From Roseivirga ehrenbergii (GTDB taxonomy: Bacteria; Bacteroidota; Bacteroidia; Cytophagales; Cyclobacteriaceae), in assembly GCF_001593005.1 (NCBI RefSeq), contig NZ_LQZQ01000045.1, positions 620,001 to 684,000 on the forward strand: a DNA stretch of 64,000 nucleotides. The letters run 5' to 3'. The translations under genes and the position numbers were made by a program. Below are positions 4,545-23,081 of the stretch, in pieces. The notes under the pieces were generated by a model. That model was not told the DNA's origin. It did no database searches and was given only the letters and a program-made list of their open reading frames with translations. Each line of letters begins with the position of its first letter. The first letter of the stretch is position 1.

Positions 4545-4916
4545 TCAAATCCATTCCTGATCGTTGTGTGTACGCTCATGCTGCACTTCACCCGTATGTT
4601 GTGTAGCGGCAGGTTCAAAAAGCATTACCCAAACCTCTTCTCCGTTTTCTGTGCGTGGGTTGTGCTCTACTCCTTTCGGAACAACAATCATTTCACCTTC
4701 ATTGATCGTTTCTGTTCTATCTCTAAACTCCATGATCAAAGTGCCCTTCCACACCAAAAACATTTCGTCTTCGTTTTCATGGCTGTGCCAAACAAAATCA
4801 TCCTTCAGTTTGGCCAATTTAACTAATTGACCATTGAGCTCTCCTATTATTTTGGGGATCCAATGGGCTGAAAACTTGGAGAACTTCTCTGAAATATTGG
4901 CTTTAGTATTTTCCAT
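4545..4916 (-). CDS. Single-domain cupin protein
   Basis: 123 residues, one cupin barrel. The two cupin motifs are visible: WHSHENEDEMFLVWKGTL (metal-binding His, His, Glu) and the later VPKGVEHNPRTENGEEV with the last His. A metal ion and a small ligand are therefore expected. The protein is cytoplasmic. Members of this family are often sugar or amino-acid metabolism helpers or isomerases, but nothing here fixes a substrate. It lies 40 bp from the glycosyltransferase start and 18 bp behind the cyclase gene, all on one strand, so a four-gene transcript from the cyclase is possible. Confidence 0.85.
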   Translation of the reverse strand: MENTKANISEKFSKFSAHWIPKIIGELNGQLVKLAKLKDDFVWHSHENEDEMFLVWKGTLIMEFRDRTETINEGEMIVVPKGVEHNPRTENGEEVWVMLFEPAATQHTGEVQHERTHNDQEWI

Positions 4917-4933
4917 AAGTTGATAGTGGCTTT

Positions 4934-5980
4934 TTAGGCCCTTTCTAGTGAGTAAACTTTTATCAGTTCATGCTTACCTCTCAATTCTTCTTCGCCAAGC
5001 AATTCTGGCTTAAAACCTGTCTGATGTCGGATTTTATTATAGTAGCATTCTGAAACCAATAAAAGGCGATCGTATTGATTACATTTCTCTTGTATCCGAG
5101 ATGTGATGTTCATGGTATCTCCATGATATGCGATTTCTCTTTTAATTTCACCGACTTCAGCCACACTAACTTCCCCCTCGTTGATGCCCGCTTTAAAAAC
5201 AGGCACAAGTCCATATTTGGCCATATAATTGGCTTCACGTTTTTTTAGTTGATCTTGAAAAGCCCAAAAAGCCTTTAAACAAACTAAGTAGTCCATCGAA
5301 GGTGTCGACTTCCAACTTAGCACCACCTCATCGCCTACGTATTGGTAGACTTCAGCACCATATTCATGAATGGCTTGTAAATCGAAAAAACAATCCTGTA
5401 TAAACTGACTATATCGAATGTGCCCAAGAGTTTCGGCTATAGTGGTAGAACTCTTGAGGTCGATAAACATGAATACTCGATTTTCCACTCGGGGAGTATA
5501 AAAGTCGCCTCTCAGTAATTTCCATAAATTACCATCGCCCAACGAGAGATTGATTTGCCTTAACAAGGCCATGATAAAATTGACAAAGATGGAGTAAAAA
5601 AAGGCCAAGATTGCCGAAGGGTTGCTTATAAACTGCCAAAAATCAACAGGCTCATGAAAGCCAAACGTAAATTTGATCATGAAATAAGCCATTATAAACA
5701 TAATGGACATAATGACCACATTACTCACCAAACCAAAAAGCTCTAATCTCCACAGAGGAATCCTTCGATATAAATAGCGCTCAATTTTAATTTGGGTTAA
5801 GCCAAACATAATACCAGCCAAAGGCCCAAATATGATCACTAAACGTAAAGCTTGAACTGGCTCAGTAGTAGTCGGAATATTCAGAGTTACACCATAGCTG
5901 CGCATTACTACCCAAAAAATAATAGCTATGACCCAACCAATAATGTAATCTCGTAATATCCTTAGATTTCTTTTCTTCAT
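4934..5980 (-). CDS. Membrane-bound class III adenylate/guanylate cyclase
   Basis: 348 residues: about four membrane segments in residues 10-140, then a class III cyclase domain from about 165. Metal-binding Asp residues are D174 in FMFIDLKSST and D217 in YQYVGDEVV; the transition-state Asn and Arg are N291 and R295 in HGDTMNITSRIQ. All catalytic positions are thus present, so the protein should make a cyclic nucleotide from ATP or GTP. There is no HAMP or sensory extracytoplasmic loop of note; the membrane part itself may be the regulator. Proteins with this four-helix head are frequent in Bacteroidota. Substrate choice (cAMP versus cGMP) is not settled. Confidence 0.85.
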   Translation of the reverse strand: MKKRNLRILRDYIIGWVIAIIFWVVMRSYGVTLNIPTTTEPVQALRLVIIFGPLAGIMFGLTQIKIERYLYRRIPLWRLELFGLVSNVVIMSIMFIMAYFMIKFTFGFHEPVDFWQFISNPSAILAFFYSIFVNFIMALLRQINLSLGDGNLWKLLRGDFYTPRVENRVFMFIDLKSSTTIAETLGHIRYSQFIQDCFFDLQAIHEYGAEVYQYVGDEVVLSWKSTPSMDYLVCLKAFWAFQDQLKKREANYMAKYGLVPVFKAGINEGEVSVAEVGEIKREIAYHGDTMNITSRIQEKCNQYDRLLLVSECYYNKIRHQTGFKPELLGEEELRGKHELIKVYSLERA

Positions 5981-6161
5981 GCGAACTGTTAATACGGCTC
6001 TAAGTTATATCAGATATATTTAAAGGCAATTTTTGAGTCAATTCAAATTCCCAGATTGGTAGAAAACATTAGGATTGATTGGAGCTTACGGAATTTATAG
6101 TGCATAAATCGAATATGGATTGCACATTTTCTTAAAGTAAAGTATTAGAACGAATATTTAA

Positions 6162-6169
6162 TATCTTTG
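6162..6169 (+). promoter_or_regulatory. Candidate -7 element (TATCTTTG) close to the Bax-like gene start
   Basis: TATCTTTG fits TAnnTTTG exactly but ends only 4 bp before the ATG at 6174. If used, transcription would start at or after that ATG, which points to a leaderless message or a later start (an in-frame TTG lies at codon 10). No TTTG is present at -33. Confidence 0.35.
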
Positions 6170-6173
6170 GCCC

Positions 6174-7022
6174 ATGCCTCAAAGCTACAAAAGGTATAAC
6201 TTGAAGACACCACTTCCGTTTAGCATATTGCTCTGTTCTCTGATTTTCTCTTGCTCAACACCAGAGGTTTCTAATACCGTTACCTTAGAAGTAAAGCATA
6301 TAGAACTACAAAGCCCCGATGACATCCTTCCTCTGAAAGATTCCCTAGTGGCTCCCCTATTGTATTCCCACATCAAAGGTATAGACACACTTGATGTGAG
6401 TGAGAAAAAGAAGAAGTTTATTTCTGCAGTTCTTCCAGCGGTTTTAGTGGCAAGATATAGAATTGAACAGAACAGAAATAAGGTAAAGAACCTGCTCAAA
6501 AAAGAGAACTGGAGCGAACAGGACAGTACTTTTTATAAGCATCTGTGTTCTGAATTTGGTACCGATAACCAAACGGTTTTACTGAACCGAATGGTAACCC
6601 ACCCCAACAGTATCATTTTAGCACAAGCCATAATAGAAAGTGGATGGGGAAGTTCAAGGGTTTTTCAAGAAGCCAATAATATGTTTGGAATATGGTCATA
6701 TAGCCCGAATGAGCCTAGAATAGCAGCCAAATTTCAAAGAGATGGTGAAACAATCTACCTGCGCAAGTATGCAGATTTTGCAGATTCTATTGAAGATTAT
6801 TTAAAGACAGTTGCAAGAGTGAATGCTTATCGTGAATTTAGAGCAGCAAGACTTGTTACCTCAGACCCATTTAAGTTAATATCCCATCTGTCTCATTATT
6901 CCGAACGAAGGGAAGAGTATGTTATAGAACTCTCCGCTATGATTCGGTTTAATGAACTAACAAAGTTCGACAACTATACAATCGACCCTTCTTACATCAA
7001 TTTAAGCGGCAGTATTCAATGA
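6174..7022 (+). CDS. Bax-like glucosaminidase (GH73-type) lipoprotein
   Basis: 282 residues. The N-terminus carries a lipoprotein signal (PFSILLCSLIFSCS). The catalytic region from about residue 135 contains SIILAQAIIESGWGSSRVF and NNMFGIWSY, the hallmark of the Bax / mannosyl-glycoprotein endo-N-acetylglucosaminidase group, with the catalytic Glu in IESGWG. It should cut the glycan strands of peptidoglycan in the periplasm. Its stop overlaps the start of the deacetylase gene (ATGA), so the two cell-wall/glycan enzymes are translationally coupled. A TTG at codon 10 could be the real start if the TATCTTTG box at 6162 is the promoter. Confidence 0.85.
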   Translation: MPQSYKRYNLKTPLPFSILLCSLIFSCSTPEVSNTVTLEVKHIELQSPDDILPLKDSLVAPLLYSHIKGIDTLDVSEKKKKFISAVLPAVLVARYRIEQNRNKVKNLLKKENWSEQDSTFYKHLCSEFGTDNQTVLLNRMVTHPNSIILAQAIIESGWGSSRVFQEANNMFGIWSYSPNEPRIAAKFQRDGETIYLRKYADFADSIEDYLKTVARVNAYREFRAARLVTSDPFKLISHLSHYSERREEYVIELSAMIRFNELTKFDNYTIDPSYINLSGSIQ

Positions 7023-18042: not shown

Positions 18043-18744
18043 ATGAAGTTGTATAAAACCATAATCATTGATGATGAACCTTTGGCGATTGACGTTATAG
18101 CACACCATTTAAAGCGGTTTTCTAATTTTGAGGTCATCCATACATTTACCGATTCGGTAGAAGCTTTTAACTTTTTAAAAGAAGCCCCTAAAATAGACCT
18201 TGTCTTTACCGACATTGCCATGCCCGAAATTTCCGGTATTGAACTGGTCAAACTTTCCAAGGCCAATACCAAGTTTATCATCACTACTTCTTTTAGCGAA
18301 TATGCCGTAGAAAGTTTTGATTTGGAGGTGGTTGATTACTTATTGAAACCTATCTCTTTCGAACGCTTTGCCAAAGCCATTTCTCGCTTTGAAGGTTTGC
18401 AAAACCATGAGTATCAAGCCCCGCAATCGCCCTCCTTTTTTATAAAAGAAGGTGATGAATTTGTGAAAATTTTAGTGAAAGACATCGACTATATAGAAGG
18501 GCTGAAAGATTACGCTAAAATTGTAGTTGGGAAAAATCATTGCTTGGCTTTAAAAACCCTTAAGTCAATTGAAGAAACGCTAAGCCCCTATCAATTTATA
18601 AGAATCCATAAATCATATATTGTACCCTTAACTAAAATAAGCCAGTACAATGGCAGCTGCGTACTGATTAACAACACTGAAATACCTGTGGGCAGCAGTT
18701 ACCGCGAAGCCCTAAAGACCTATTTAAATAAGAATAAGTTGTAA
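18043..18744 (+). CDS. LytTR-family response regulator
   Basis: 233 residues. The receiver domain has the acidic pocket IIDDEP, the phospho-acceptor Asp in LVFTDIAMPE, and the Lys in YLLKPISFERF. The C-terminal LytTR DNA-binding domain runs from about residue 130 (FFIKEGDEFVKILVKDIDY, FIRIHKSYIV, IPVGSSYRE). It is immediately downstream of its kinase with no spacer. Targets are unknown; in Bacteroidota such pairs often control envelope or neighbouring transporter genes. The S41 peptidase or the serine hydrolase nearby are possible targets, but this is inference only. Confidence 0.93.
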   Translation: MKLYKTIIIDDEPLAIDVIAHHLKRFSNFEVIHTFTDSVEAFNFLKEAPKIDLVFTDIAMPEISGIELVKLSKANTKFIITTSFSEYAVESFDLEVVDYLLKPISFERFAKAISRFEGLQNHEYQAPQSPSFFIKEGDEFVKILVKDIDYIEGLKDYAKIVVGKNHCLALKTLKSIEETLSPYQFIRIHKSYIVPLTKISQYNGSCVLINNTEIPVGSSYREALKTYLNKNKL

Positions 18745-18879: not shown

Positions 18880-19737
18880 TCATTTAGAATATTTCATATT
18901 CATAGTCCATTTTGTATGCGCTCCTATATCATAAGGTTCATTTCTATCAACTTGACTAAAACCGAGATTATTAATTATTATTTCATCAGCCCACTTTATA
19001 TAGTCAGTGTCTCCTTTTTTCAATAATTCTATAAGTGCCATCTCTTGTTCATTAGAGGGTAGAAGATCATATACTTCATACTTTAGGATCTCTAGACACC
19101 CGAGTTTTTCAGACTTCTTAAGAGGAGTCTGAACATAACCAGCATATCTATAATTCACATGTGGGAACACTTTAAACTCTAGCACCTCATTTCTCACTAA
19201 CTCTTCACAGAATTCACGCCAATGAGAAATCTCTCTACCCTTACCTGAGTCGAACCAGTCTAAGAATTCTAGAGCTTTTGAGGCAGGCACCATTAATCTC
19301 AAATCATCTCGCTTCTCCCCATTTGTTGGTAATTTCTTATCCAGTTCAACATTGTATTTTTCTTGAAGCCTTGACATTTCTCCAGGCAATACTTTATATA
19401 CCCCCCCCACTGGCTGATAAAAATTCCACTTTGAATTTTTAACTAGCAAATATTTGTCACTAACTCTGATACGGTATATGTATGACATCGAAAAGCGTAT
19501 TAAACTTCTTCGATGCCATATTTTAGTAAGAAACCATAGTCTGAATCTTTTAATATTCTGAAGTAAACCATCTATAAACCAAGCTATTAAAGGAGCAAGA
19601 ATACTTATTGTTAAAGCCACGGAAACAGTTAACCAAAAGTTCGATTGAGCTTCATCTTCAAAGAAAGTTGCCATTGCCAAAAGATAGATTATGGCTATTA
19701 AAGCTATTATAACATATCTGTTAGATTTAGAACTCAT
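18880..19737 (-). CDS. CBASS effector: 2TM protein with degenerate Nudix-like domain
   Basis: 285 residues. Two membrane helices (about 8-25 and 35-57) are followed by a basic linker and a cytoplasmic domain from about residue 85. The strand YIYRIRVSDKYLLVKN and the QPVGGVYKVLPGE that follows resemble the SMODS-associated Nudix fold, but the catalytic box G-x5-E-x7-REUxEExGU is not kept, so it more likely binds a nucleotide than hydrolyses one. This fits a TM-Nudix effector (I recall Cap16), which would disrupt the inner membrane once the second messenger binds. It is the last gene of the operon and overlaps the ATPase stop by 4 bp. Confidence 0.8.
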   Translation of the reverse strand: MSSKSNRYVIIALIAIIYLLAMATFFEDEAQSNFWLTVSVALTISILAPLIAWFIDGLLQNIKRFRLWFLTKIWHRRSLIRFSMSYIYRIRVSDKYLLVKNSKWNFYQPVGGVYKVLPGEMSRLQEKYNVELDKKLPTNGEKRDDLRLMVPASKALEFLDWFDSGKGREISHWREFCEELVRNEVLEFKVFPHVNYRYAGYVQTPLKKSEKLGCLEILKYEVYDLLPSNEQEMALIELLKKGDTDYIKWADEIIINNLGFSQVDRNEPYDIGAHTKWTMNMKYSK

Positions 19738-20621
19738 TTTATAACTGGGCTAGGTTTAATATGATTTAAAGTTTCACGGACTATATCATAATTTAATGGT
19801 GAACTAGGGAATGCAGCAGCAATAGATTCTGGGAAAAGTCGCAATCTGAGGTCGGAAAAAGAGAAGCCAATACCCTCATTTTCATTAGGGCCAGTGAGTT
19901 CTACAATACTTTTTATTTCTTCCGTACTCAAATCTGCACCATCTAGGTCTTTTTCAATCAATTCTTTTCTTTCATCATCCGTTGGTCTTTCAAATTTCAC
20001 CACAATAGCAGCTCTTCTAATAATGGCTTCATCAAGAAAATGTAGTCGATTAGTTGACATAATGACAATGGCTCTTCCATTTAAGCTTCTTATCTCATCT
20101 ATTTTTTGAATAAGGGTATTAACACCCGCCTTTTCTTCTTGATGCATCTGATGAGTACTCCTTGTTGTGGCAATCGCGTCTGCCTCATCTATTAGTAAAA
20201 ATGCTAACCTCCTTTTACCTGCTTGAGTGATGAGTTCGGCAAAAGCATCGTTTACGAGGTTACCCATTTCACCATGTAATCCTTCACCTCTTACTCTTGT
20301 ACTTAACCTCAAGAAAAACCCTTGTTTGCCGAGCTCTCGGGTCATTCTATCTGCAAGCGCCTCGGCAGAGGCCGTCTTACCAGTACCAACATCTCCCTCA
20401 AATATTATTAATGGATACTTATCTACAAGATAATCAACGGCTGGAAGACTTCCCATGTGAAATTTTTGTCTCCACGACTCTAATCCCTCTTTGTCTAGAA
20501 GAAGCCTCAAATTATTATGGATACGGTTAAATTTTTGCTCGAAACCGACTAATGTTTCTGCTTTCTCTTTAATCTGAGAATTAGGTAACTCTAAGATGTT
20601 ATCAAATACTTTGTCAGACAT
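19734..20621 (-). CDS. cap6: CBASS TRIP13/Pch2-like AAA+ ATPase
   Basis: 295 residues, one AAA+ module. Walker A is GDVGTGKT (residues 76-83), Walker B is LLIDEADA (142-149), sensor 1 is in VIMSTNR (Asn191) and the Arg finger region is IRRAAIVVKF. With a HORMA gene next to it, this is the remodeller that opens closed HORMA proteins and so holds the system off until a phage peptide triggers it. Its start lies 1 bp after the HORMA stop, and its stop overlaps the effector start by 4 bp, so stoichiometry is probably set by coupling. Known family: Cap6 of type III CBASS. Confidence 0.9.
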   Translation of the reverse strand: MSDKVFDNILELPNSQIKEKAETLVGFEQKFNRIHNNLRLLLDKEGLESWRQKFHMGSLPAVDYLVDKYPLIIFEGDVGTGKTASAEALADRMTRELGKQGFFLRLSTRVRGEGLHGEMGNLVNDAFAELITQAGKRRLAFLLIDEADAIATTRSTHQMHQEEKAGVNTLIQKIDEIRSLNGRAIVIMSTNRLHFLDEAIIRRAAIVVKFERPTDDERKELIEKDLDGADLSTEEIKSIVELTGPNENEGIGFSFSDLRLRLFPESIAAAFPSSPLNYDIVRETLNHIKPSPVIK

Positions 20622-20622
20622 A

Positions 20623-21129
20623 TTAGTTAAAATTAGTTTTGCTTAGCTCATAGCCCTTGCTTCCGTAAGTCTGTGCAGAATCTGCTCTAAGATGACTGTA
20701 GCTAGTGTCAATTGATGAATTAGTCCAGTCAATTTTGAATCCATGGTCTATATATATTTGCTCTTTTTGTTCTTCAGTAAGTCTATGCCAACTACTGCTA
20801 TAAAACACTATTGCGTTGAGTCTTGTATCCGGTGTATCTGGCCAATAATTTTTCCCTGCACGATCACCTTTCATTGTTCTTCCATCCATGGCAACGTTAT
20901 ATCTCACCGCTTGAACCGCTTTATTATTTTTGTCTAACAATGTTATATCAACCTTATCAAGGTATTTCAGCTCTGCTAATTTCACGATATCATGACAGAT
21001 ATCCTCCACGTAGATTTGTGTCCACTTGTTAGTCTTTCTAGCAATCATTCTAACGTCAGCGACAAAATTTTCAAATGTTTTTCTAATGTCGACCACAGTA
21101 TAGGTCGCTGTATGTGTTCCGTAACTCAT
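20623..21129 (-). CDS. cap7: CBASS bacterial HORMA-domain protein
   Basis: 168 residues. The N-terminal TATYTVVDIRKTFENFVADV, the central LDKVDITLLDKNNKAV strand pair and the C-terminal part match, as far as I can judge, the bacterial HORMA domain family 1. In known systems this protein closes around a phage peptide and then switches on the CD-NTase. Only one HORMA gene is present, so the one-HORMA form of type III CBASS. No obvious closure-motif tail is fused to it. It overlaps the CD-NTase stop by 4 bp. The assignment rests partly on context with the CD-NTase and the TRIP13-like gene. Confidence 0.82.
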   Translation of the reverse strand: MSYGTHTATYTVVDIRKTFENFVADVRMIARKTNKWTQIYVEDICHDIVKLAELKYLDKVDITLLDKNNKAVQAVRYNVAMDGRTMKGDRAGKNYWPDTPDTRLNAIVFYSSSWHRLTEEQKEQIYIDHGFKIDWTNSSIDTSYSHLRADSAQTYGSKGYELSKTNFN

Positions 21130-22094
21130 TCTTCTGTAATGTTAAAATGTGGTCCAAAAATAGACTTCCACTCAGAAATAGCATCTCCCATAGTACCCCT
21201 CGCTTGCGCTAGAGTTAGAGTTTCATAGGCTTCTTCAGCCTCTTCTTGAATCTCGTTCCAATCAGACTCTGTTATCTTGTTGGTTGTACTGTTTTCGTTA
21301 TTTGTCGGATCTGCGATATAGACCGGAGTAGTATAGTAGGGTATAGTATTGATAGCCCCTATAAAATTGAGCTCCTTTAACTTCTCAGAACTAGCAAACT
21401 CAAAAAACCTAATCAAAGCCTCTTCAATATTTGTTTCAACTCCTTTTGTCAGGTCCAAGTGTGATACAATTAGCTCTACAGAAAAGGATTTCAAGACATC
21501 AAGTTCTTTGTAATTTCTCCACCATTTTACTGCTCTTACAACTGAAGTAAAACTGCTGTTGGCATTTTTCCTCTCTTTTGCAAACTCCAATTGCCCATCG
21601 ACACTAGTTATGTATTTGCCCTTACCACCACGTTCAGGTTGCCAAACATAGCCCTCTGGAGAACTCAATGGCACTACTGGTACAATATCAACCTCCAACC
21701 CAGTTCCAGAGAATTTAATCTTAATAGACTTGGTATTTCCAGATGCATCTACATCTCTATATATATCCTTTGATGGATAGATGCTTTCTAAGTAGTCTAC
21801 CACGAAGTCGTGCAATTTTTGTACGTCATTCTTCACAGTCTCATCACCCTTTATGAAAAATACGAGATCTATATCAATGGGAAAATCTCCTGTTGGTCGT
21901 AATATTGTGCCTTTCTTCCAAGAACCTGCTCGAAGAACTCTAGTTACTCTCAAGCCAGTGCTGTCATCATTCTTAATTTTGTCCTCCAGTTTAGAAACGA
22001 GGTTCTCTATCTGACCTTTATATTTCGGCATGTTGTCCCTCTTTAGTTTTATTCTGCCGATAAAATTCTGCAATTGAGTATTGGTGAGTTTCAT
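21126..22094 (-). CDS. CBASS CD-NTase (cGAS/DncV-like nucleotidyltransferase)
   Basis: 322 residues. The Pol-beta nucleotidyltransferase signature is intact: GSWKKGT (57-63), the metal Asp pair D74 and D76 in DFPIDIDLVFF, and the third Asp D136 in GLEVDIVPV. A helical C-terminal domain with VVRAVKWWRNY, SFSVELIVSH and IADPTNN follows, as in CD-NTases of clades C/D that pair with HORMA and TRIP13. It should make a cyclic di- or trinucleotide; the product is not predictable from sequence alone. It starts 2 bp after the DUF2188 stop and overlaps the HORMA start by 4 bp. Confidence 0.92.
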   Translation of the reverse strand: MKLTNTQLQNFIGRIKLKRDNMPKYKGQIENLVSKLEDKIKNDDSTGLRVTRVLRAGSWKKGTILRPTGDFPIDIDLVFFIKGDETVKNDVQKLHDFVVDYLESIYPSKDIYRDVDASGNTKSIKIKFSGTGLEVDIVPVVPLSSPEGYVWQPERGGKGKYITSVDGQLEFAKERKNANSSFTSVVRAVKWWRNYKELDVLKSFSVELIVSHLDLTKGVETNIEEALIRFFEFASSEKLKELNFIGAINTIPYYTTPVYIADPTNNENSTTNKITESDWNEIQEEAEEAYETLTLAQARGTMGDAISEWKSIFGPHFNITEE

Positions 22095-22096
22095 AT

Positions 22097-22324
22097 TTAT
22101 CCTTTTGGTGGATGAGGGTCATTACCATAAGAATTTTTCTCTCTAAACTGCCCATTCTTTCCCTGAATAGTTAACTCAGAACTGTTATTAGTAGCAAGAC
22201 GTTTACCTATCTCTATTGCTTCTTTTTGAGTACTGGTGTTTGCTGAAGCTCTTTGGCTTCCTCCTGATTTCACGCTCCATCCTCCTTGAGGATTGGACAC
22301 GACAAAGTAATTTTTCTTTGGCAT
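22097..22324 (-). CDS. DUF2188-family small protein leading the CBASS operon
   Basis: 75 residues, no signal. The pattern VVSNPQGGWSVKSGGSQRAS, TQKEAIEIGKRLA, SELTIQGKNGQFREKNSYG and DPHPPKG matches DUF2188, a widespread small domain of unknown role. It is only 2 bp ahead of the CD-NTase and on the same strand, so it is the first gene of the CBASS transcript. I know of no defined role for DUF2188 in CBASS; it might set expression, act as an inhibitor, or ride along by chance. The leader in front carries an inverted repeat (22341-22356). Confidence 0.85.
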   Translation of the reverse strand: MPKKNYFVVSNPQGGWSVKSGGSQRASANTSTQKEAIEIGKRLATNNSSELTIQGKNGQFREKNSYGNDPHPPKG

Positions 22325-22415: not shown

Positions 22416-22490
22416 CAATAAAAAACTACCCCTTCAGGGTAAACACACATTGAATTATCATCGAGGCTAACCGCAAATTAGCCTCGGTCT
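22416..22490 (+). ncRNA. Candidate small RNA divergent from the CBASS operon
   Basis: A perfect promoter at 22380-22410 is followed, within 80 bp, by a hairpin with a 9-bp perfect stem (22462-22470 with 22478-22486) and GTCTATTTTA, a weak terminator tail. A first small hairpin TACCC/GGGTA lies at about 22427-22441. A transcript of about 75 nt with two hairpins and no start codon of note is predicted. It could be a small RNA, an antitoxin-type RNA of the island, or the leftover leader of a lost gene. The remaining gap up to 22820 contains only the 55-bp repeat at 22740 and a decayed reading frame on the minus strand. Confidence 0.4.
22462..22490 (+). terminator. Terminator-like hairpin of the candidate small RNA
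   Basis: CGAGGCTAA and TTAGCCTCG pair perfectly (9 bp, loop CCGCAAA), followed by GTCTATTTTA. The T run is short, so termination strength is uncertain. Confidence 0.55.
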
Positions 22491-22820: not shown

Positions 22821-23081
22821 TTAATCAATAGTTTTAACAACTTTCTCTTTCACTTTTGGTGGCCGCTCCCCTCTTAAATGTATAATCAGTCCATCTAAAA
22901 ATTTCCTAAGGATTTGATCGCCAGCATCTACATATTTGGGGTGGTCTTCTGCCCTAAATAAATCGCCTAACGCGCCTTTGGTAATTTCAAAGTCAGCCAG
23001 TTTTAAAATCTCTACAATATGTTCGTCACGCAGTTTATGGGCAACCCTTAGTTTTTTGAGGATATCGTTGTTTGTCAGCAT
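22821..23081 (-). CDS. DUF1456-family protein, single repeat
   Basis: 86 residues. MLTNNDILKKLRVAHKLRD and the acidic helix DEHIVEILKLADFEITKGALGD match the DUF1456 (YehS) repeat. YehS of enteric bacteria has about 156 residues with two repeats; this protein has only one, followed by a basic tail PPKVKEKVVKT. It is cytoplasmic, with unknown function. It lies between the two 55-bp repeats, together with the first GIY-YIG element. Confidence 0.75.
   Translation of the reverse strand: MLTNNDILKKLRVAHKLRDEHIVEILKLADFEITKGALGDLFRAEDHPKYVDAGDQILRKFLDGLIIHLRGERPPKVKEKVVKTID

Follow-up and report, generated by a model that had tools for sequence, protein, structure and literature searches.

A type III CBASS operon with a predicted TM-Nudix effector and a small DUF2188 front gene in Roseivirga ehrenbergii

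The HORMA/TRIP13 switch of type III cyclic-oligonucleotide-based antiphage signaling systems (CBASS) is described in the relevant part of a review (PMC10419184), and regulation of these systems by HORMA–peptide binding and Trip13 is described in a passage of the CapW paper (PMC9122588). Here we analyse a five-gene operon in a window of 64,000 nucleotides from Roseivirga ehrenbergii (contig NZ_LQZQ01000045.1, positions 620,001 to 684,000 of the forward strand; unless a locus is named, coordinates below count from the first letter of the window). Judged by its sequence, this operon is type III CBASS, is intact and encodes a transmembrane (TM)-Nudix effector; existing models already cover this kind of system. 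As CBASS it is ordinary, in that its parts match models in PADLOC, Pfam and NCBIfam. Its less ordinary part is a small front gene, DUF2188, also found before other kinds of CBASS operon, and the remaining interest of the locus lies in this gene and in a conserved but split Nudix box in the effector.

Gene content, order and proposed mechanism

Five same-strand open reading frames (ORFs) occupy positions 18880-22324 on the minus strand, exactly where an earlier reading made without database searches (the sequence-only reading) had placed them, and their junctions are as tight as it had described: effector and TRIP13 genes overlap by 4 bp, TRIP13 and HORMA genes are 1 bp apart, HORMA and cyclase genes overlap by 4 bp, and cyclase and DUF2188 genes are separated by 2 bp. 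All five proteins matched the profiles of the families to which that reading had assigned them (CD-NTase, bacHORMA, TRIP13, Sa_NUDIX and DUF2188), with scores far from chance. The cyclase, a cGAS/DncV-like nucleotidyltransferase (CD-NTase), scored 318.4 bits against the NF041116 CBASS cyclase profile (cut-off 200) and 46 bits against SMODS, and its best solved relative is CdnC of E. coli MS115-1 (E 4.3e-26 over residues 18-317). The HORMA protein scored 194.8 bits with PF18138 bacHORMA_1 over 1-169/169 and 197.7 bits with the PADLOC HORMA model, and the ATPase scored 382.2 bits with PADLOC TRIP13 and carries Walker A (GDVGTGKT, residues 76-83) and Walker B (LLIDEAD, residues 142-148) motifs. 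For the effector, PF18167 Sa_NUDIX gave 250.8 bits and the PADLOC 2TM effector model 314.7 bits over nearly the full length; for DUF2188, PF09954 gave 79.1 bits against a gathering cut-off of 22, and PDC-S16 gave 113.6 bits over 75/75 positions. The sequence-only reading had staked its assignment on a HORMA match at 20623-21129 and an effector match at 18880-19737, and both were found. The operon thus holds every gene by which type III CBASS is recognised, namely a CD-NTase with an intact active site, a HORMA gene, a TRIP13-like ATPase gene and an effector gene, in agreement with the class proposed from HORMA plus TRIP13.

The catalytic motifs picked out by eye (GSWKKGT, D74, D76 and D136 of the cyclase; Walker A and B of the ATPase) are likewise kept. 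Their key residues are invariant across 19 alignment rows comprising the window and 18 relatives (L and G numbers are our labels for loci and genomes; the cyclases of L020 and L021 are identical); for the ATPase these are G76, G81, K82, T83, D145 and E146, and those of the cyclase are given in Table 1.

The 18 relatives were found by a search of genome contigs with the cyclase alone, a method that reaches close relatives only. All 18 loci (cyclase identity 58-62%) carry cyclase, HORMA, TRIP13 and effector in one order, although they are not independent, since the cyclases of L010, L013 and L016 are nearly identical, in addition to the identical pair, and in L016 only a shortened effector ORF of 165 aa was found. 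Their hosts comprise 16 Bacteroidota, one Acidobacteriota and one Ignavibacteriota. Three more loci reached through the effector (L055, L201 and L203) hold the same four genes. DUF2188 lies directly upstream in 3 of the 18 relatives (L010, L013 and L016, one tight clade) and was not found in L055, L201 or L203; the four genes are therefore the core, and DUF2188 is optional. Accordingly, the proposal of a five-gene CBASS unit stands for cyclase, HORMA, TRIP13 and effector and falls for DUF2188 as a core part.

The suggestion that this effector is a less common choice for type III CBASS fared differently at different distances. Among close relatives we rejected it, because 18/18 cyclase-found loci use this one effector type. 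Further out it may hold: 84 plasmid records contain a related cyclase, and the three proteobacterial ones that we opened have a 3'-5' exonuclease annotated downstream and no NUDIX gene among their annotated genes. The effector type may thus differ further out in the cyclase family, with TM-Nudix less common there.

Type III CBASS with a HORMA/TRIP13 switch and a messenger-triggered, membrane-disrupting TM-Nudix effector is, with high probability, the best explanation of the operon as a whole. For activation, messenger identity and membrane disruption we infer the following course. A closed, peptide-bound HORMA protein would dock on the CD-NTase and turn it on during infection, and TRIP13 would separate the HORMA/CD-NTase pair and keep the system silent otherwise. 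The CD-NTase would make a cyclic oligonucleotide, probably cyclic tri-AMP by kinship with CdnC, whose product we take to be this molecule. That messenger would bind the Nudix-like domain of the effector, which would oligomerise through its two N-terminal helices and disrupt the inner membrane, so that infection would end with the cell.

Several observations weigh against this account. The HORMA protein is distant from solved bacterial HORMA proteins (6u7b, E 0.26; 6p8v, E 0.28), which unrelated acetyltransferases outscored in the search of solved structures. In the effector model, confidence is lowest for the N-terminal helices (block pLDDT, the predicted local distance difference test, of 54-75 there and 84.5 for the whole model). 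Foldseek support for the effector is modest: three matches reached E <=0.001, with TM-scores of 0.25-0.31 by query length, and the best, to Nudix domains, had E 6.7e-4 and TM-scores of 0.30 (query length) and 0.57 (target length). Invariant metal-binding glutamates in the effector hint at an enzymatic role, as pure sensing needs none. Finally, two genes were scanned on each side of the operon, and in neither pair did Pfam models find one resembling CapW or CapH/CapP.

Table 1. Features of the operon in the window; amino-acid lengths and residue numbers refer to the encoded proteins.
Feature	Coordinates	Strand	Length or residues	Evidence
DUF2188 protein, first operon gene, probably an optional accessory (PADLOC PDC-S16)	22097..22324	-	75 aa	PF09954, PDC-S16 profiles
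CD-NTase, CBASS oligonucleotide cyclase	21126..22094	-	322 aa	NF041116, SMODS profiles
CD-NTase nucleotidyltransferase motif GSWKKGT	21906..21926	-	57-63	G57 S58 W59 K61 T63 invariant, 19 rows
CD-NTase Asp pair	21867..21875	-	D74, D76	invariant, 19 rows
CD-NTase third Asp	21687..21689	-	D136	invariant, 19 rows
Bacterial HORMA protein	20623..21129	-	168 aa	PF18138 bacHORMA_1, PADLOC HORMA
TRIP13/Pch2-like AAA+ ATPase	19734..20621	-	295 aa	PADLOC TRIP13; Walker A and B
TM-Nudix effector: two N-terminal hydrophobic helices and SMODS-associated Nudix domain	18880..19737	-	285 aa	PF18167, PADLOC 2TM effector
Effector, two hydrophobic helices	19558..19725	-	about 5-29 and 33-60	Kyte-Doolittle; structure model
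Effector, Nudix box first half, VGG	19402..19410	-	110-112	invariant in 17/17 effectors; 7/7 further homologues
Effector, Nudix box second half, REFCEEL	19198..19218	-	174-180	R174 E175 F176 E178 E179 L180 invariant in 17/17

DUF2188 at the front of CBASS operons

DUF2188 might stand outside the system, as a defence-island passenger that lies upstream by chance. We hold this to be a real possibility, if the less probable one, and its absence from 15 of the 18 relatives speaks for it. In the cyclase tree the place of the window is not resolved, and the DUF2188 label needs two changes, with a single origin possible. The protein itself gives little guidance. Its model (pLDDT 83.5) has a beta3-alpha-beta2 arrangement; no solved structure matched it by sequence, and a fold search with the model returned no match at E <=0.001. 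With VIA-align the best hits were the anti-CRISPR AcrIF5 (7f45; Z 5.5, 58 aligned residues, rmsd, the root-mean-square deviation, 2.6) and 7eqg (Z 5.4), and YaiA and YegP scored Z <5; because such scores fall within the range of unrelated folds, we make no claim about the fold. A literature search found no paper on the function of DUF2188, none linking it to CBASS by title and none on PDC-S16.

Within 395 genomes of the window's phylum, DUF2188 occurs in 75 and SMODS in 44, and the 12 that hold both are no enrichment by genome (Fisher p 0.22), as expected of a passenger. The two genes lie within 3 kb of each other in 7 of these 12 genomes, including that of the window (12 and 7, like the HsdM_N counts that follow, were counted by eye from listings). 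With the window set aside, 6/11 genomes are paired in this way against 0.036 expected at random placement (Poisson P 3e-12), a proximity that chance would hardly produce; the six fall in four genera (P 7e-8 for four). As a control we took HsdM_N, which, among the matches listed, occurs in 13 of the 44 SMODS genomes and lies within 3 kb of SMODS in at least two (G153 and G271). The difference between 6/11 and 2/13 has p 0.08; by proximity alone DUF2188 is thus not distinguished from the general clustering of defence islands, and we caution that part of the proximity to CBASS is clustering of this kind.

Direct placement upstream on the same strand is stronger evidence than proximity, and it argues against a passenger. 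In the window and in G411, G064, G076 and G084, DUF2188 immediately precedes the first CBASS gene and shares its strand; the last three of these encode a patatin phospholipase and a cyclase and are loci that we take to be type I-like. In G169 the gene lies downstream and contains a stop, and in L133 (G387), beside two SMODS genes, it is interrupted by inserted DNA, its two parts about 1.3 kb apart. Twelve plasmid regions, a non-random choice, were also opened. DUF2188 directly precedes CBASS genes in four of them: L060, L186 and L188, type I-like loci with a phospholipase-nucleotidyltransferase pair and a conjugative backbone in common, and L056, where a cyclase and a SAVED gene follow. The other eight have no CBASS gene annotated beside DUF2188, which favours the passenger.

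Neighbours at large point both ways. A same-strand ORF within 200 bp downstream was found at 45 of 80 loci, by a simple rule that overlooked one true gene or more (the L087 phospholipase among them); the first 25 families, which were tabulated, include at least three phospholipase effectors and at least one cyclase alongside a type I methyltransferase, QatA, other PADLOC models and ordinary genes such as epimerases. Upstream neighbours (33 hand-picked of 78) include four type I specificity subunits, four HSP70 proteins and three M78 peptidases. Phage and plasmid records also contain DUF2188 (29 and 455, respectively); in Javan35, for instance, it lies near the CI-like repressor. In L183 and L190 it lies in regulator regions of Gram-positive mobile elements, beside CI-like repressor or XRE genes, and L190 has two annotated copies. 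DUF2188 is therefore not specific to CBASS, occurring beside other defence genes and in phages. Most likely it is an optional small leader gene with a regulatory or auxiliary role, and, being widespread and the first gene of several CBASS operons, it lends itself to study as a possible regulator or accessory that these operons share.

Regulatory genes lie upstream of DUF2188 in some loci. L086 has a divergent helix-turn-helix (HTH) gene and an M78 peptidase gene, a pair like CapH+CapP, and L186 has a divergent HTH-M78 protein. A passage of PMC13373217 describes CapH+CapP as regulating neighbouring immune operons in response to DNA damage. A different divergent module of three genes stands upstream of DUF2188 in L103, L104 and L185 and upstream of the CBASS genes in 7 of the 18 relatives (L006, at 4595-6384 of that locus, L007 and L017-L021; in L019 its peptidase is cut by the contig end). 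Besides an ImmA/IrrE-like peptidase of the M78 family it encodes two proteins, the first about 110-140 aa long and the second, of about 190-230 aa, weakly similar to extracytoplasmic function (ECF) sigma factors (TIGR02985, 8e-5 in L006, no match in L017; TIGR02937, 5e-8 to 2e-7 in L103, L104 and L185; each match falls short of NCBI's cut-off). When the seven sigma-like proteins were made into a profile, it matched no PDB sigma factor, and its hhalign probability against the L185 protein was 0.7%, which counts against one family. If real, the module might supply a protease-controlled sigma factor in place of the CapH repressor. Some relatives lacking DUF2188 have other small genes just upstream of the cyclase, namely a 58-aa ORF in L017-L021 (with a longer start in L019) and a small, possibly single-helix ORF in L006, L007 and L011; further upstream, L011 has an HTH gene and a likely HExxH peptidase gene.

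A split Nudix box in the effector

The sequence-only reading had described a two-helix effector with a Nudix fold, and both features are present. Kyte-Doolittle windows of 19 residues at >=1.6 begin at residues 5-11 and 33-42, the model has helices at residues 3-23 and 31-60, and the remainder of the evidence for the fold comes from VIA-align, where each of the 50 listed rows is a Nudix-fold entry (Z up to 9.3, with 119 residues aligned at 3.3 A; best rows Z 8-9). By sequence, the best hit among solved structures was unrelated (E 0.31). The PADLOC RTasNUDIX model, of the defence-associated reverse transcriptase (DRT) set, also matches the effector (196.6 bits).

The same reading had held the catalytic box to be missing, a claim that we reject, because the box is split and both halves are retained. 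In an alignment of 17 of the 19 effectors (L021 was omitted as the same as L020, and L016 because its ORF starts after VGG, though REFCEEL is kept), V110, G111 and G112 and R174, E175, F176, E178, E179 and L180 are kept in 17/17; with the further homologues named below included, the halves lie 61-64 residues apart, 62 in the window effector. In canonical Nudix boxes (GX5EX7REUXEEXGU), about 14 residues separate the GG strand from the REUxEE helix; some 48 extra residues thus split the box of the window effector, in which the contiguous pattern is not present and the position of the first Glu, counted back from REF, is Lys. Seven further homologues, two from Firmicutes plasmids beside a nucleotidyltransferase gene and the others from G018, G020, G258, G179 and L055, all have VGG and REFxEE[LI], 62-64 residues apart. 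The Sa_NUDIX proteins of G018 (L200) and G258 (L202) occur without this clade's cyclase, HORMA or TRIP13 in the 9-9.5 kb read, and that of L202 adjoins a SMODS gene. The shortened ORF of L016 (9736-10233 of that locus), whose other three core genes are whole, is a broken gene or an assembly error.

This conservation bears on whether the effector is mainly an enzyme. In that case the messenger would activate a Nudix hydrolase that depletes a nucleotide, and the helices would do no more than anchor it in the membrane. Invariance of VGG and REFxEEL in 17/17 effectors, both halves in all seven further homologues and the preponderance of Nudix proteins among the fold matches would suit such an enzyme. 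Interruption of the contiguous box and the Lys at its first Glu position would not, and the VIA-align ranking is headed, level with many other entries, by the Nudix-like domain of MUTYH. As that domain is not a hydrolase, the fold is compatible with either a sensor or an enzyme. According to the part of the review that treats Cap16 (PMC10419184), this NUDIX-containing TM effector retains its toxicity when the NUDIX domain is mutated, and this favours membrane damage as the lethal step. We therefore consider a mainly enzymatic effector unlikely and find it reasonable to infer, as had been proposed, that the effector senses the messenger and breaks the membrane. On that account the retained split box may serve ligand binding, metal binding or a side activity; probably it would position a metal and the phosphates of the ligand, and it may also hydrolyse a nucleotide. 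With both halves present, sensor versus enzyme becomes a testable question.

Two linked ideas go further, and we think it distinctly improbable that both hold: that the effector is a bacterial 'chanzyme' and that DUF2188 serves abortive defence operons in general as a small accessory. The first, if true, would combine messenger-gated membrane damage with hydrolysis of a nucleotide by the split but invariant box, perhaps of the messenger itself, giving a self-limiting alarm. The second would imply a common function, such as damping or licensing the operon; in several operons DUF2188 would stand with a CapH/CapP-like regulator on one side and, on the other, CBASS genes whose type varies.

Genomic surroundings and comparison with known systems

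The operon is flanked by a LytTR response-regulator gene (ending at 18744) and a DUF1456 gene (22821-23081), and the four flanking genes scanned encode a histidine kinase, the LytTR response regulator, DUF1456 and a GIY-YIG protein. In the sister genome G014 about 23.5 kb separate the stretches over these two flank genes (81% and 83% DNA identity); this interval holds other ORFs and has no match to the operon. The window's HORMA protein has matches in 1 of 19 genomes of the genus, its own. The operon is thus sporadic and was probably acquired horizontally; its GC content is 37.3%, against 40.0% for the window. Sporadic occurrence would also fit a decayed or silent operon, which is very improbable given five intact frames and the kept catalytic motifs of cyclase and ATPase. 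Promoter-like sites numbered 17, against 14.0 ± 3.7 in shuffles, and we accordingly make no promoter claim. Two terminator-like hairpins lie on opposite strands at 22426-22488, upstream of DUF2188, and the region has four in all (2.6 ± 1.6 in shuffles). Elsewhere in the same genome there is a second SMODS-type nucleotidyltransferase (G000:C2:386834-387313), and PF18134 (AGS_C) has no match in that genome.

Compared to the type III CBASS of E. coli MS115-1 (6p80, 6p8v, 6u7b), the operon has the same cyclase and HORMA families, bacHORMA_1 being named for 6u7b, although the HORMA proteins are only weakly similar by sequence. The effectors differ, as that of MS115-1 is presumably the endonuclease NucC, a name that stands in the PDB molecule line of the cyclase's match, whereas the one here is TM-Nudix. 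From Cap16 and the 2TM-NUDIX effectors (PF18167; PADLOC PDLC00675) there is no evident difference in kind, a likeness seen through the 314.7-bit family profile match rather than through the sequence of Cap16 itself. The type III CBASS of E. coli upec-117 shares CdnC, the HORMA protein Cap7 and the TRIP13 protein Cap6 but differs in having the exonuclease Cap18, the 3-transmembrane protein Cap19, Cap17 and the regulator CapW, with no NUDIX gene named in the passage that describes it (PMC9122588). The NUDT9-H domain of the 'chanzyme' TRPM2 (8srb and 8sra; Z 8.5 and 8.4) is a Nudix domain that serves a membrane channel, and the likeness is one of working principle and not of kinship, as many other Nudix proteins score equally. 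Lastly, DUF2188 corresponds along its whole length to PADLOC PDC-S16, whose prefix we read as 'phage defence candidate'; the PADLOC entry carries no description, and here the gene appears as the first of several CBASS operons.

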